Shown here: in pieces, positions 2,239 through 56,080 of the stretch
How the letters are laid out: every line of letters starts with the position of its first letter
How positions within the stretch are numbered: position 1 is the first letter of the stretch
Assembly: GCF_947503125.1 (NCBI RefSeq)
Contig: NZ_CANNCR010000001.1
Span: forward strand, 248,001 to 312,000
Source: an uncultured Metabacillus sp.
GTDB lineage: Bacteria; Bacillota; Bacilli; Bacillales; Bacillaceae
Length of the DNA: 64,000 nucleotides
Direction: 5' to 3'
The notes under the pieces: model-generated
Told to the model about the DNA's origin: nothing
The model's database searches: none
Seen by the model: the letters and a program-made list of their open reading frames with translations, nothing else
Translations under genes and position numbers: made by a program

Positions 2239-3399
2239 ATGAATATCCATGAGTACCAAGGGAAAGAACTCCTACGTAAATACGGAGTTTCTGTACCGAA
2301 CGGACGAGTGGCTTTTTCTGTAGATGAAGCAGTTGAAGCTGCAAAAGAACTTGGAACAGATGTAGTAGTGGTAAAAGCTCAAATCCATGCAGGTGGACGC
2401 GGTAAAGCCGGCGGAGTAAAAGTTGCTAAAAACCTGGAAGAGGCTCGTACATATGCTGAAGAAATTCTTGGTAAGACATTAGTAACACACCAAACTGGCC
2501 CTGAAGGCAAGGAAGTTAAGCGCCTGCTTATTGAAGAAGGGTGCGATATTAAGAAGGAATATTACATCGGCCTTGTTTTAGACCGTGCTACATCACGCGT
2601 TGTTCTAATGGCATCTGAAGAAGGCGGAACAGAAATTGAAGAAGTAGCAGAGAAAACTCCTGAAAAAATCTTTAAAGAAGTCATTGATCCCGCAGTAGGA
2701 TTACAAGGCTATCAAGCTAGAAGAATTGCATTTAACATTAATATTCCAAAAGAACTTGTTGGACAAGCTGTTAAATTTATGATGGGCTTGTATAAAGTTT
2801 TTGTAGAAAAGGATTGTTCAATTGCAGAGATTAATCCATTAGTTGTAACAGGTGATGGAAAAGTTATGGCACTTGATGCAAAATTGAATTTTGATTCAAA
2901 TGCATTATATCGCCATAAAGATATTGTCGAATATCGCGATCTTGAAGAAGAAGATCCAAAAGAAATTGAGGCTTCTAAGTACGATTTAAGTTATATTTCT
3001 TTAGACGGTAACATTGGCTGTATGGTAAATGGTGCTGGTCTAGCGATGTCTACAATGGACATTATTAAATACTACGGCGGTGAACCTGCAAACTTCCTTG
3101 ATGTTGGGGGCGGTGCAACTGCAGAGAAAGTAACAGAAGCGTTCAAAATTATTCTTTCCGATCAAAATGTTAAAGGAATTTTCGTTAACATCTTCGGTGG
3201 AATCATGAAATGTGACGTTATTGCAGAAGGTGTTGTAGAGGCAACAAAACAAGTAGGTTTAGAGATCCCGCTTGTCGTGCGTCTTGAAGGAACAAATGTT
3301 GATTTAGGAAAGAAAATTTTAAATGAGTCTGGCTTAAATATTACTTCTGCAGAGTCTATGGCTGACGGCGCACAAAAAATCGTTTCATTAGTAGGGTAA
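2239..3399 (+). CDS. sucC: Succinyl-CoA synthetase (ADP-forming) beta subunit
   Basis: Beta subunit of the TCA-cycle enzyme that converts succinyl-CoA to succinate with formation of ATP or GTP. The N-terminal ATP-grasp domain begins [17 protein letters not shown] and carries the [16 protein letters not shown] nucleotide-binding segment. The C-terminal ligase/CoA-binding domain holds the [12 protein letters not shown] and GIFVNIFGG motifs. The 386 residues match the usual length. ATG follows AGGAGG at 7 bases. It is the first gene of a two-gene operon; sucD begins 18 bases downstream, so the two subunits are co-translated. Confidence 0.98.
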
Positions 3400-4431: not shown

Positions 4432-5316
4432 ATGGATACTGTTACAAAAACACTCTTTACATTATCACATTGTAAAGGAATCAGTCATCATCTTCTTCAC
4501 AAGCTTTTAACGATTGATCCAACATTAACTAATTTTCACTTCCATAAGGAAAACGAATGGGCGAGCTATTTTAATATTCCGAAAGAAAAAGCTCTCGCAA
4601 TCAAAAAAGAGTTTGCTTCATTACAAGTTGACACCCTTTTGGAAACATATAAACAACAGCAAATTTGTTTTGTTTCCCTTTATGATAAAAACTACCCGCC
4701 GCTTCTTAAGGAAATTTCTGACCCTCCGCCAATCCTATATTACAAGGGAGATATTCGTCTTACACAGCAACCGCATTTGATAAGTGTAGTCGGAACTAGG
4801 TATCCAACAAATTATGGTGAAACAGCGCTAGAGTACCTATTAAAACCGCTTATTATGGAAAATTGGATAATAGTAAGCGGAATGGCAAAAGGAATTGATA
4901 CAATAGGGCATGAAACAGCTATAAAAAACGGTGGAAAAACGATCGCAGTTATTGCAGGTGGCTTATTTTATCTCTACCCTAAACAAAACATCCCATTAGC
5001 AAAAAAGCTCATGGAATCACATCTGATCCTCTCTGAACATCCTCCTGCTACCCCGCCTCAAAAGTGGCACTTTCCAATGAGAAACAGAATTATTAGCGGG
5101 TTGTCTTTAGGAACGATCATCATTCAAGCTAAGAAGCGAAGCGGGTCATTAATTACAGCTTACCAGGCATTGGAACAAAATCGCGAAGTATTTGCGGTCC
5201 CTGGATCCATATTTGATGAAAATAGCGCTGGAACAAATGAACTAATACAAAGCGGAGCAAAATTAGTTCATAATGCTTCAAATATAATGGAAGAATTTCC
5301 ACTTTCGCTTGATTAA
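4432..5316 (+). CDS. dprA: DNA-processing protein A (DprA/Smf)
   Basis: Binds incoming single-stranded DNA and loads RecA during natural transformation. The Rossmann-fold core holds ISVVGTRYPTNYGE and the SGMAKGIDTIGHETAI motif, then AVIAGGLFYLYPKQN and RNRIISGLSLG, all in family order. The N-terminal ~65 residues are a helical domain. At 294 residues it is close to the B. subtilis length. The ribosome-binding site TAGGAGG lies just before ATG 4432. It sits upstream of topA, as in most Firmicutes, but a long repeat-filled gap separates the two here. Presence of dprA does not by itself show competence. Confidence 0.95.
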   Translation: MDTVTKTLFTLSHCKGISHHLLHKLLTIDPTLTNFHFHKENEWASYFNIPKEKALAIKKEFASLQVDTLLETYKQQQICFVSLYDKNYPPLLKEISDPPPILYYKGDIRLTQQPHLISVVGTRYPTNYGETALEYLLKPLIMENWIIVSGMAKGIDTIGHETAIKNGGKTIAVIAGGLFYLYPKQNIPLAKKLMESHLILSEHPPATPPQKWHFPMRNRIISGLSLGTIIIQAKKRSGSLITAYQALEQNREVFAVPGSIFDENSAGTNELIQSGAKLVHNASNIMEEFPLSLD

Positions 5317-5350
5317 ATTTTTGAAAAAAGTACAAAATTAAGATAATAAA

Positions 5351-5733
5351 GCGAGACTTCCAACAATGGGGTAATTTCATTGTTGGTTAGCGAGACTTAT
5401 CGGATCATTACGGGTAGTTATCTCTACGTTCTAAAATTTTTAAAAGCAAAGGACTTACTACCCGTTAAGATGGGATAAAGCGAGACTTCCAACAATGGGG
5501 TAATTTCATTGTTGGTTAACGAGACTTATCGGATCATTACGGGTAGTTATCTCTACGTTCTAAAATTTTTAAAAGCAAAGGACTTACTACCCGTTAAGAT
5601 GGGATAAAGCGAGACTTCCAACAATGGGGTAATTTCATTGTTGGTTAGCGAGACTTATCGGATCATTACGGGTAGTTATCTCTAAGTTCTAAAATTTTTA
5701 AAAGCGAGGATTTGCTACCCGTAAAGATAGGGA
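5351..5733 (+). repeat. Family B tandem array: three 129-nt hairpin units
   Basis: Units run 5351-5479, 5480-5608 and 5609-5733. Units 1 and 2 differ at one base (GTTAGC versus GTTAAC); unit 3 drifts near its end. Each starts GCGAGACTTCC. Stem 1 is CCAACAATG with CATTGTTGG (unit 1: 5360-5368 with 5378-5386). A second GAGACTTATCGGATC word leads into stem 2, ACGGGTAGT with ACTACCCGT (5410-5418 with 5457-5465). Units join as ATGGGATAAA|GCGAGACTT. There are no unique spacers and no ORF. A diverged fourth unit at 38398-38597 keeps both stems through compensatory changes, so folding appears to be selected. Function is unknown: possibly a mobile palindromic repeat or a structured transcript. Confidence 0.9.
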
Positions 5734-5824
5734 AAATTGCGTAAGAATTTGTCATTTTAGTGAAAATATTCATGTTCATTCATATTAAATTAGTATATGA
5801 TAAGGGTAATTTCTTTATTTGTGT

Positions 5825-36358: not shown

Positions 36359-38401
36359 ATGGATATGAATCAATACTTAGAAGTTTTTATTGAAGAAAGT
36401 AAAGAGCATTTACAATCATGTAATGAAAAATTACTAGATTTAGAGAAAAATCCTAATGATCTATCTATTGTCAATGAAATTTTTCGTTCAGCTCATACGT
36501 TAAAAGGAATGAGTGCAACGATGGGGTATGAAGATATAGCAAATTTAACCCATCAAATGGAAAATGTATTAGATGCAATTAGAAGCGAAAAGCTTTTTGT
36601 GACATCTTCCCTGTTTGATCCCGTTTTTGCCTCTTTAGATGCCCTTGAGGAAATGGTTTTTTCTATTGCAGCAGGTGGTGATGGTAAAAAGAACGTATCT
36701 GCTATTGTTGAGATGCTAAAAGCAATCGAACATGGTGAAATTAGTCAAAATCCGGCCAATCCTGATCAAACCGGCAATGAAGATAAGAAACAAGCAATCG
36801 ATGAATATGATGAGTTTGAATATACAGTTATTAAGCAGTCAAAAGAACAAGGCTTTAGCGCCTATGAATTGACGGTTTCTCTTCGTGAGGATTGTTTATT
36901 AAAGGGTGCAAGAGTTTTTATGGTATTTGAAATTTTAGAACAAATTGGTGAAGTGATCAAGGCCGTTCCAGCTGTAGAGCTTTTAGAAGAGGAAAAATTT
37001 GATTCCAAATTTACTGTGGCCATTATTTCAAAAGAACCAAGTGATGTAATTAAAGAAAAAATTATGAAGGTATCTGAAATTGAAGCGGTGTTTGTACAAA
37101 TAATAGACCCCGACAATGCAAATAGCTCCCTAGAAACAAAGTCAACTCCTGGTACAGTCCAGAGCGGAGAGAATGTGAGAAAAAGGGAAGAAAAAGATGA
37201 ACAGGACAAGGAAACCAATTTGCAAAAGGCGAAAAAACAGGTTGCTGCAACAAGTAGCAAAACGATTCGCGTTAATATTGAGCGTTTAGACATCTTAATG
37301 AATCTTTTTGAAGAGCTTGTGATTGACCGTGGCAGATTAGAACAGATTTCAAAGGATTTAAATAATAGTGAACTTGATGAAACGGTTGAAAGGATGTCGA
37401 GGATTTCCGGAGATCTTCAAACCATTATTTTGAATATGCGGATGGTACCGGTCGAAACAGTTTTTAATCGTTTCCCTCGGATGATTCGTCAGCTTGCAAA
37501 GGATCTAAATAAAAAGATAAACCTGAAAATTATCGGTGCAGATACAGAATTGGATCGAACTGTCATTGATGAAATTGGCGATCCGCTTGTGCATTTATTA
37601 CGAAATGCGATTGATCATGGCATAGAAATGCCCCAAGTTAGGTTGGAAAATGGGAAACCAGAGGAAGGAAACGTTAGTTTACGAGCATACCATAGCGGAA
37701 ATTATGTATTCATCGAGATTGAGGATGATGGTGGTGGTATTAATCGTGAACAAGTTTTACAAAAGGCGATTGAGCGAGGAGTTGTTACAGAGCAATCAGC
37801 TGCAGCCTTAACTGATAAACAAGTGTATGAGCTTATATTCTCATCAGGTTTTTCAACTGCAGAACAAATTTCTGATATATCCGGTCGAGGTGTAGGACTT
37901 GATGTGGTAAAAAGTACGATCGAATCACTCGGAGGCTCAATCTCAATCGATGCAGAACAAGGAAAAGGCTCGTTATTCTCTATTCAACTACCACTCACTT
38001 TATCGATTATCTCAGTAATGCTTGTTGAATTACAAAAGGAGAAATACGCCATTCCGCTTTCCTCAATTATTGAAACAGCGGTTATAAAAAATGAAGATAT
38101 CCTTCATGCCCATAATCAAATGGTTATTGATTACCGTGGCAAAATTGTACCTTTATTATTTTTGACAGAGATCTTTGAAGTACCGGTAGAAAAAGTGAAT
38201 GAAGACTATGTTTCTATAATAATTGTACGAAAAGGGGAAAAAATGGCGGCACTTGTTGTTGATTCCTTTATTGGTCAACAAGAAGTCGTTCTAAAATCAC
38301 TTGGAAACTATTTAACTTCCGTTTTTGCAATCTCTGGTGCAACAATATTAGGAGATGGACAAGTTGCTCTAATTATTGATTGTAATGCTTTAATTAAGTG
38401 A
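36359..38401 (+). CDS. cheA: Chemotaxis histidine kinase CheA
   Basis: Receptor-coupled kinase that phosphorylates CheY and CheB. P1 Hpt domain: phosphorylated H46 in IFRSAHTLKGMSATMG. P2 (about residues 150-255) binds response regulators. P3 dimerisation begins near IRVNIERLDILMNLFEELV. The P4 ATPase has LLRNAIDHGIE (N box), EDDGGGI (G1) and SDISGRGVGLDVVKS (G2). P5, CheW-like, runs from about residue 545 to the end, GQVALIIDCNALIK. At 680 residues it is complete. The TGA stop (38399-38401) lies inside the first bases of a family B repeat, so the insertion border coincides with the gene end. Confidence 0.97.
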   Translation: MDMNQYLEVFIEESKEHLQSCNEKLLDLEKNPNDLSIVNEIFRSAHTLKGMSATMGYEDIANLTHQMENVLDAIRSEKLFVTSSLFDPVFASLDALEEMVFSIAAGGDGKKNVSAIVEMLKAIEHGEISQNPANPDQTGNEDKKQAIDEYDEFEYTVIKQSKEQGFSAYELTVSLREDCLLKGARVFMVFEILEQIGEVIKAVPAVELLEEEKFDSKFTVAIISKEPSDVIKEKIMKVSEIEAVFVQIIDPDNANSSLETKSTPGTVQSGENVRKREEKDEQDKETNLQKAKKQVAATSSKTIRVNIERLDILMNLFEELVIDRGRLEQISKDLNNSELDETVERMSRISGDLQTIILNMRMVPVETVFNRFPRMIRQLAKDLNKKINLKIIGADTELDRTVIDEIGDPLVHLLRNAIDHGIEMPQVRLENGKPEEGNVSLRAYHSGNYVFIEIEDDGGGINREQVLQKAIERGVVTEQSAAALTDKQVYELIFSSGFSTAEQISDISGRGVGLDVVKSTIESLGGSISIDAEQGKGSLFSIQLPLTLSIISVMLVELQKEKYAIPLSSIIETAVIKNEDILHAHNQMVIDYRGKIVPLLFLTEIFEVPVEKVNEDYVSIIIVRKGEKMAALVVDSFIGQQEVVLKSLGNYLTSVFAISGATILGDGQVALIIDCNALIK

Positions 38402-38597
38402 GACTTCCATCAGTGGGTGTTTTCTTCATCCCCACTGATGGTTCTCGAGACTTATTACGCTTAAACCGCCACATCATGTGGCTTCGCCTGACTTGGACAT
38501 CCTGTCCTTCGTCGGATCTTTACGGGCAGTTATTCCCAACTTATTTCTTAGCTTTTCTTGAATCTTGAAGAGGGAATTTTGCTGCCCGTTAAGATGG
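38398..38597 (+). repeat. Family B hairpin repeat between cheA and cheW (unit B4)
   Basis: It begins GTGAGACTTCC and ends TGCCCGTTAAGATGG, as the units at 5351-5733 do. Stem 1 is CCATCAGTGGG (38407-38417) with CCCACTGATGG (38431-38441); stem 2 is ACGGGCAGT (38522-38530) with GCTGCCCGT (38581-38589). Between them lies an insertion of about 55 bases with two small hairpins, GCCACATCATGTGGC and GGACATCCTGTCC. Compared with the units before topA, paired positions change together. It sits inside the fla/che operon, in a gap that usually is short, and may affect expression of cheW, cheC, cheD, sigD and swrB. Confidence 0.85.
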
Positions 38598-38634
38598 CTA
38601 AAATAGAGGAAATGCTCGGGAAGGGGTATATCAT

Positions 38635-39096
38635 ATGAGTGAATTCATATCGGATAACATAAAAATCATCGTGTTTCAGTTAAAAGATGAGGAATATGGT
38701 ATTCCTGTGCAACAAGTTCGATCAATTGAAAAGTTTCAACAAATTACTAGAGTTCCTAGAACAGCTCCTTATATTAAAGGGGTTATTAACTTAAGAGGTG
38801 TAGTGACACCAATAATTGACTTACGTAATCGCTTTGGTTTTGAAGAGCTTTCTACTGATGAAAGCACCCGTATAATTATTGTTTCAAAGGATGATAAGGA
38901 AGTCGGATTTATAGTTGACGCTGCAAACGATGTAATTGATATTGATTCTGACCTTATCGAACCTGCACCTGAAGTAGTGGGTGCCGTCCATGAAAAATAT
39001 ATTCAAGGTGTGGCTAAGCTTGAAAAACGTCTGATCGTCATGATTGATTTAGACGAGATTTTAGAGATGGAACGAGAACCCCACATGCTTATGTAG
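38635..39096 (+). CDS. cheW: Chemotaxis coupling protein CheW
   Basis: Adaptor linking chemoreceptors to CheA. The whole 153-residue protein is one CheW domain: KIIVFQLKDEEYGIPVQQVRSIE at the start, then PYIKGVINLRGVVTPIIDLR, the hallmark of the family, and GVAKLEKRLIVMIDLDEIL near the end. ATG 38635 follows GGGAAGGGG. It is the first gene after the family B repeat, 233 bases from cheA. Confidence 0.97.
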   Translation: MSEFISDNIKIIVFQLKDEEYGIPVQQVRSIEKFQQITRVPRTAPYIKGVINLRGVVTPIIDLRNRFGFEELSTDESTRIIIVSKDDKEVGFIVDAANDVIDIDSDLIEPAPEVVGAVHEKYIQGVAKLEKRLIVMIDLDEILEMEREPHMLM

Positions 39097-44944: not shown

Positions 44945-45090
44945 AAAAGCGGAAGCGCCTTGCTCAGCGACGTAGAAAAAAGAGCACTCCGTATGAGATA
45001 AAGGAAACACGAAGAGCGATAGCGATTCGGTGTTGACTTACGCATGCGAGGAGTGTGAAGTTCAATAGTCGCTAGAGCTGGATGTCACGT
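44945..45090 (-). repeat. Family A structured intergenic repeat, copy A2 (reverse orientation)
   Basis: Read on the minus strand it ends GGCGCTTCCGCTTTT, as does copy A3, and it shares with A3 a block of about 65 bases (45000-45064 here, 55869-55933 in A3) with about four differences. The block contains the palindrome CGCATGCG. Outer pairs CACTCC (44985-44990) with GGAGTG (45050-45055) and AGCGAC with GTCGCT are preserved in A3. It lacks the 89-base insertion seen in A3. It fills the first half of the 316-base gap between frr and uppS. Confidence 0.8.
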
Positions 45091-45160
45091 ACGCTAATCC
45101 ATAGTACAAGGAAATTTATAGTTTCCTAAACAATAAAAAATAGGTACAATAGATATGTGA

Positions 45161-55755: not shown

Positions 55756-55838
55756 CAGCAATTAAAAAGGAATTAAAAACTGCTGTTTTAGTCGCAGAAG
55801 CTTGTATTTCTAAAATAAAAAGTTATTGAACTTAGTTT

Positions 55839-56080
55839 TAGTGTCTAGCTACAGCGCCTAGCGATTAATGAACTTCACACTCCTCGCATGCGTAAGTCAA
55901 CATCGAATCGCTCTCGCTCTTCTTGTTTCCTTTGCCGCACTTTAACGTGCAGTATTGGAGAGAAAAGGTATAGCAGTATGTGTTGACAACACTGCCCGTA
56001 AAGGTCTGATAAGTCTCGCTTTATCTCATACGGAGTGATCCAGTTCATAAGTCGCTGAGCAGGCGCTTCCGCTTTTCTTA
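55839..56080 (+). repeat. Family A structured intergenic repeat, copy A3, carrying a nested family B module
   Basis: It begins TTAGTGTCTAGCTACAGCGCC and ends GGCGCTTCCGCTTTTCTTA, like A1. Its body matches A2 closely except for 89 extra bases at about 55934-56022. Read on the minus strand, that insert begins GCGAGACTTATCAGACC, then TTACGGGCAGT paired with ACTGCACGT, which is stem 2 of family B with one mismatch. So a B module sits inside an A element. The repeat ends 2 bases before the rimP ribosome-binding site AAGGAGG, so its folding could affect rimP translation. It occupies half of the 495-base polC-rimP gap. Confidence 0.8.

Follow-up and report, generated by a model that had tools for sequence, protein, structure and literature searches.

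Two hairpins recur in short repeat units within the 64,000-nucleotide stretch of uncultured Metabacillus sp. DNA analysed here (the window), and in one unit, B4, some base pairs differ at both partners from those of the tandem units B1-B3. Is the folded form of this repeat under selection, does it fold as RNA or as single-stranded DNA, and what kind of element carries it? B4 looks to be a member of a family of small, mobile DNA repeats that are scattered through many Bacillus relatives.

Copy B4 occupies 38393..38602 on the plus strand, including its end repeats (ATTAA, 38393-38397; CTAAA, 38598-38602). Its stem 1 hairpin (38407..38441, plus strand), which is supported by its arms, its fold and the stem-1 covariation described below, has the arms CCATCAGTG at 38407 and CACTGATGG at 38433. 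The stem 2 hairpin (38522..38589, plus strand) has the core arms ACGGGCAGT (38522-38530) and GCTGCCCGT (38581-38589). Units B1-B3 (5346..5736, plus strand) are 129, 129 and 128 nt long, with one ATAAA common to neighbours. Their stem 1 arms are CCAACAATG at 5360, 5489 and 5618 and CATTGTTGG at 5378, 5507 and 5636; their stem 2 arms are ACGGGTAGT at 5410, 5539 and 5668 and ACTACCCGT at 5457 and 5586 only. B3 reads GCTACCCGT, giving a G-T wobble at the end pair of the stem, and the same type of wobble is found in B4.

A preliminary description of this DNA had claimed that B4 shares both hairpins with the tandem units and differs from them by two double changes in stem 1 and one in stem 2. The arms lie where it had placed them and all three double changes are correct by sequence; the end wobble of B3 and B4 had escaped it, and B3 departs from its account. 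Its further claim that loops and spacers are unrelated was wrong. Copies have in common GYGAGACTTCC, GGTTAGCGAGACTTATCGGATCTTTA, their ATAAA ends and a portion of the stem-2 loop, this last being present in many copies and absent from B1-B3. The extra length of B4 is a 57-nt insert at the junction of stems 1 and 2 (38456..38512, plus strand).

The covariance-model search that the same description had proposed was run with a model, R1, in which 12 insert-free copies from the same genome were aligned with a two-stem structure (B1 and B3 included, B4 excluded). R1 matches B4 at 38393-38603 with 84.8 bits (E 3.3e-19 over 217 kb). With such a score from a model built without B4, a chance likeness is excluded. 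RNA folding z-scores against shuffles are -7.1 for B4, -2.7 for B1 and -2.1 for a typical copy.

Distribution and anatomy of the repeat family

The repeat is abundant in its own 5.44 Mb genome. A blastn search with one unit identified 54 places at E<=10, of which 20 have E<0.001, and the 12-mer GCGAGACTTATC occurs 14 times (reversed control, 0). Extraction yielded 20 full and 3 short copies. R1 gives 67 matches at E<=1, a count that includes partial matches and antisense self-matches of the palindromes.

We identified R1 matches at E<=0.01 in 38 of 100 genomes (own, genus, family and order), representing 15 of 46 genera. At least 20 matches are listed for 13 of these 38 genomes, with at most 30 candidates scored per genome. 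One same-genus genome carries a match at 3016-3171. A pattern scan of named genomes, in which the left arm of stem 2 was fixed, found the element, among the 80 of 118 stretches listed, in Cytobacillus, Lysinibacillus, Domibacillus, Terrilactibacillus, Psychrobacillus, Rummeliibacillus, Neobacillus, Niallia, Metabacillus, Sporosarcina, Peribacillus, Sporolactobacillus, Terrihalobacillus and others. The phage sequences had no element match, none of the viral contigs had the element pattern and none of the E. coli genomes had the element. A record labelled as Klebsiella grimontii plasmid pNY3A (CP079755.1, 221561-221652) contains a copy of 92 nt that begins and ends with ATAAA, which may reflect contamination, mislabelling or transfer.

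A typical copy is 154 nt long (about 155), with short forms near 100 nt and long forms near 212 nt. From 5' to 3', copies consist of ATAAA, GYGAGACTTC, stem 1, the linker TTAGCGAGACTTATCGG, stem 2, AAGATGGG or AATGCGGG and similar sequences, and ATAAA; in many other genera the linker is replaced by TTAGTTGAACCAATCGG. Stem 2 has about 20 bp, with a T-T mismatch that hardly varies, and its loop is long. Long copies bear a pair of small hairpins, located either at the junction of the two stems (B4, C109, C22, L039, L096 and L099) or inside the stem-1 loop (C1_156k, C30 and L091).

The hairpin pair resembles Bacillaceae-1 RNA (Rfam RF01690), an sRNA family graded as certainly RNA and probably not cis-regulatory (PMC2864571).

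RF01690 itself is an Rfam RNA family with a gathering score of 35, and the likeness lies in the insert of some copies, a hairpin pair with CCT-type loops; the difference is that the family spans the insert only and that the B4 insert scores under the gathering cut-off. The match in B4 covers 38446-38508 with 22.1 bits. The preliminary description had proposed Rfam as a check on novelty, and the window is indeed without a match at gathering score, with this resemblance of the B4 spacer below the cut-off as the qualification. We attribute the other permissive Rfam matches in the window (snoRNA, miRNA and unrelated sRNA families) to chance. Two other copies of the element (in L016 and L011) do clear the cut-off, scoring 45.9 and 37.7 bits. 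The own genome has 29 RF01690 matches at E<=10, 8 of them above the cut-off; 6 lie within R1 copies and 23 of the 29 outside the element. Of these six, the three in the stem-1 loop run antisense to the element and the three at the junction run in its sense; the gathering score is reached only in C30 and C1_156k. Control genomes, too, match the family at E<=10 in 12 of 14 cases (above the cut-off in one), so the weakest match within the element (C22, E 3.5) counts for little. In a Terrilactibacillus genome (G100), all three long copies read (L378, L379 and L380) have an AGGAYGT-loop hairpin pair at the same junction, in the direction opposite to that in Metabacillus.

Ends, arrays and filled sites

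Exact ATAAA is found at the start of 102 of 133 deduplicated copies, at the end of 80 and at both ends of 66, where an ATAAA shared in tandem hits is credited to one neighbour only. The end repeat is direct and orientation-specific, and corresponds to TTTAT on the opposite strand. Of 36 head-to-tail junctions picked by hand, 32 show an overlap of exactly 5 nt between neighbours, and an array of seven units in another Metabacillus genome (G009) keeps a strict 152-nt period.

B4 lies between two genes that we take, from gene order and sequence, to be cheA and cheW. The first four bases of the element (38398-38401) finish the final codon of cheA, for Lys, and add the stop after it (AAG TGA, 38396..38401, plus strand; the reading frame ends at 38401). 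At the end of cheA, relatives have AAA or AAG followed by a stop of their own. Twenty relatives were searched at this one site, and the element is absent from all 11 in which both flanks were compared.

A second repeat in the window exists in both an empty and a filled version. The empty paralogue (44946..45095, plus strand) aligns with the filled one (55856-56078, minus strand), into which a short copy containing stem 2 only is inserted (55931..56024, minus strand). All six short-copy places read in G009 (L367-L372) sit at one point of the second repeat. Another repeat (TGTCTAGCTCCAGCGCCTAGC...), at 842-1036 and 55826-55862, includes a hairpin with an AGGACGT loop and, at 949-997, a perfect inverted repeat of 21 bp.

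Judged from these sequence comparisons, the element looks mobile: copies have ATAAA ends, form arrays with one common ATAAA and are absent from the cheA-cheW site in relatives.

Covariation and the folding strand

Among the 12 model copies, 23 cells show double changes, against a shuffled mean of 7.8 (0 of 500 shuffles as high), and sliding the partner arm abolishes the signal. In 91 copies from named genomes, whose alignment was fitted to the model and includes one antisense match, the count is 144 against 44.8 in shuffles (0 of 500 as high). Because shuffles ignore relatedness, changes were also counted along trees. For this analysis we removed 8 of 160 rows as antisense, 19 of 152 as near-duplicates, 8 of 133 without anchors and 3 of 125 without full stem-2 arms; 7 of the 122 rows kept have poor stem-1 anchoring and were still counted.

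With a tree built without stem 1, the 122 copies yield 79 Watson-Crick-to-Watson-Crick double changes in stem 1, where 300 simulations give a mean of 5.2 and a maximum of 12 and slid partners give 2 to 6. Stem 2 yields 11 such changes (null maximum 12), which is not significant in that sample. Since most copies came from the scan that fixed the left arm of stem 2, its test was repeated on rows not chosen by pattern (54 usable of 69, with the 12 model copies among the sources). In these rows, stem 2 has 9 events by one tree and 11 by the other (null means 3.3 and 2.9), counts that 2 of 300 and 0 of 300 simulations reach. Stem 1 has 39 or 29 events, and none of 300 simulations comes as high. When all 1128 column pairs are tested against a strict phylogenetic null, a single stem-1 pair stays significant by itself. 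We conclude that shape is clearly what is maintained in stem 1, and that stem 2 is maintained mostly in its sequence, with some weaker covariation.

Paired changes in two arms need not reflect selection on a fold, as template switching also yields them when it corrects imperfect palindromes and so keeps the arms complementary. Such a process predicts equal numbers of G-T and A-C mismatches, yet on the plus strand stem 1 has 73 G-T against 35 A-C cells, and 58 against 32 single changes (p 0.008); stem 2 is near even (23 against 16 cells; 17 against 14 changes). It should also act on both stems, yet stem 1 varies far more, with 213 inferred substitutions against 91 in stem 2 among rows not chosen by pattern. 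We therefore regard template switching without selection as quite improbable. Changes that make G-T pairs in stem 1 are 1.5-fold more frequent than in the rest of the element (Fisher p 0.018). The excess of G-T over A-C in stem 1 is moderate evidence that the plus strand is the one that folds. The preliminary description had proposed selection on a folded form in RNA or single-stranded DNA: the selection it proposed gains support from covariation over many copies and from the G-T excess.

The same G-T intermediates would be expected if the hairpins acted as RNA, either as part of a transcript (in mRNA stability or attenuation) or as a small RNA, with the RNA fold selected. For two B. cereus strains, one study also places intergenic repeats of the 18 bcr families within mRNA, in 84 of 165 cases in one strain and 62 of 155 in the other (PMC3446304). 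A cis-acting element should, however, show a preferred direction, and the orientation of the copies to genes is random. With simple ORF calls, 116 of 133 copies had both neighbours, and flanking genes are co-directed in 120 cases and opposed in 112; for copies between two genes of one direction the counts are 39 and 35. Six of the 133 copies overlap an ORF of at least 80 codons. A cis-acting role in mRNA is therefore unlikely. A role as terminator or promoter was rejected, as there is no promoter- or terminator-like site in 5300-5800 (B1-B3) or 38300-38700 (B4). The absence of B4 from the same site in relatives also speaks against selection on an RNA fold, which we consider improbable overall. 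Single-stranded DNA during movement would be a better reading than a cis-acting RNA.

Candidate enzymes and relation to bcr1

We propose, with a probability of about 0.6, that B4 represents a mobile element of the bcr1 kind that is non-autonomous and has its folded strand recognised by a putative enzyme acting in trans. This enzyme would recognise stem 2 largely by sequence and stem 1 by shape, and would cut and join at ATAAA/TTTAT. Selection on recognition by the enzyme would keep the hairpins. Each copy would end in the target sequence, which would allow new copies to insert beside existing ones and so produce arrays. It may be a Y1/HUH transposase of the IS200/IS605 kind, a site-specific recombinase or an enzyme of some other type; either of the first two fits the direct end repeats, the fixed orientation and the arrays with one common ATAAA.

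Members of the IS200/IS605 family have subterminal hairpins, a short target at one end with the same letters at the other, a fixed orientation and no terminal inverted repeat. The element resembles them and their miniature derivatives in its subterminal hairpins, its direct, fixed-orientation ends and its lack of a terminal inverted repeat. It differs in that no related Y1 transposase was found in the own genome, in that its TTAT/ATAA end pairing does not hold in many other genera and in that its replication-strand bias varies. The flanks of the two Y1 transposase genes (PF01797) of the own genome look unrelated by eye, and the stretches fetched around them contain no model match; as mobilisers, these two genes were rejected. 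In two Metabacillus genomes, most copies run against the leading strand (G014, 37 of 49 loci; G009, 21 of 27, with the origin placed by skew at about 1.8 Mb, or 18 of 27 with the origin at 1.5 Mb). These counts suggested a rule of lagging-strand insertion, which is contradicted by Terrilactibacillus G100, where 17 of the 22 best-scoring copies (28 of 45 of all) run with the leading strand, and by a genome of another genus (G103; 10 of 16). Because the bias differs among lineages, a simple lagging-strand rule of the IS200/IS605 kind is argued against. The element also recalls REP/BIME sequences and their RAYT transposases, which are likewise high-copy intergenic palindromes in mosaic combinations (PMC2817692), but its unit is larger and the Y1 genes of the own genome have no flanking copies.

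The closest parallel is with bcr1, a repeat with a size of about 155. The preliminary description recognised no named family, which holds for this element by name, although its kind, bcr1-like, TTTAT-flanked and MITE-like, has already been described for the B. cereus group (PMC6542083, PMC3446304). The repeat bcr1 is reported to be restricted to that group, MITE-like, tied to TTTAT and structured (PMC6542083, PMC2267715, PMC3446304), and the group A repeats bcr1-bcr3 have sizes of 147 and 167 (PMC2267715). Likened to that published description, our element resembles bcr1 in size, high copy number, TTTAT ends, MITE-like character and conserved secondary structure: its unit of 154 nt occurs in 20 full copies (67 matches at E<=1) in one genome, 66 of 133 copies have exact TTTAT (ATAAA) at each end, and none of the 11 relatives carries it at the cheA-cheW site. 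It differs, by description rather than by sequence, in occurring in many genera other than those of the B. cereus group, in its arrays with one common ATAAA and in its long forms with a Bacillaceae-1-like insert. Our full-text search, whose reach excluded most subscription journals, found no literature on the element outside the B. cereus group. A candidate marker pattern for bcr1 matched 0 of 397 genomes.

The element could also be bcr1 itself, reaching beyond its published range. This is compatible with the proposed bcr1-like mobile element, which would then be less new, and we think it possible, at less than even odds. The size, TTTAT ends, copy number and conserved structure are similar to those reported for bcr1 (PMC6542083, PMC2267715). 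Against this, no B. cereus-group plasmid was matched by the element in blastn, although plasmid copies of bcr1 are reported (PMC6542083). No B. cereus-group species title appears among the 80 of 118 stretches listed in the named scan, where several rows read only 'Bacillus sp.'.

A broader and rather unlikely idea is that RF01690 is at least partly a portable hairpin module and not a free small RNA. Such a module would insert at preferred spots (the stem-1 loop and the junction of stems 1 and 2) in mobile repeats with ATAAA ends, which would form a superfamily spanning the Bacillales and including bcr1. A single unrecognised enzyme would move all of them in the form of folded single-stranded DNA.

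A type of repeat that published work confines to the B. cereus group appears to have a counterpart spread widely through the Bacillales, with at least 20 matches in some genomes. The available parts of the bcr1 literature name no mobilising enzyme, and the copies provide a large natural alignment for finding which fold is recognised and which enzyme moves the element. They also suggest that an Rfam 'sRNA' family (RF01690) may partly be a mobile module.
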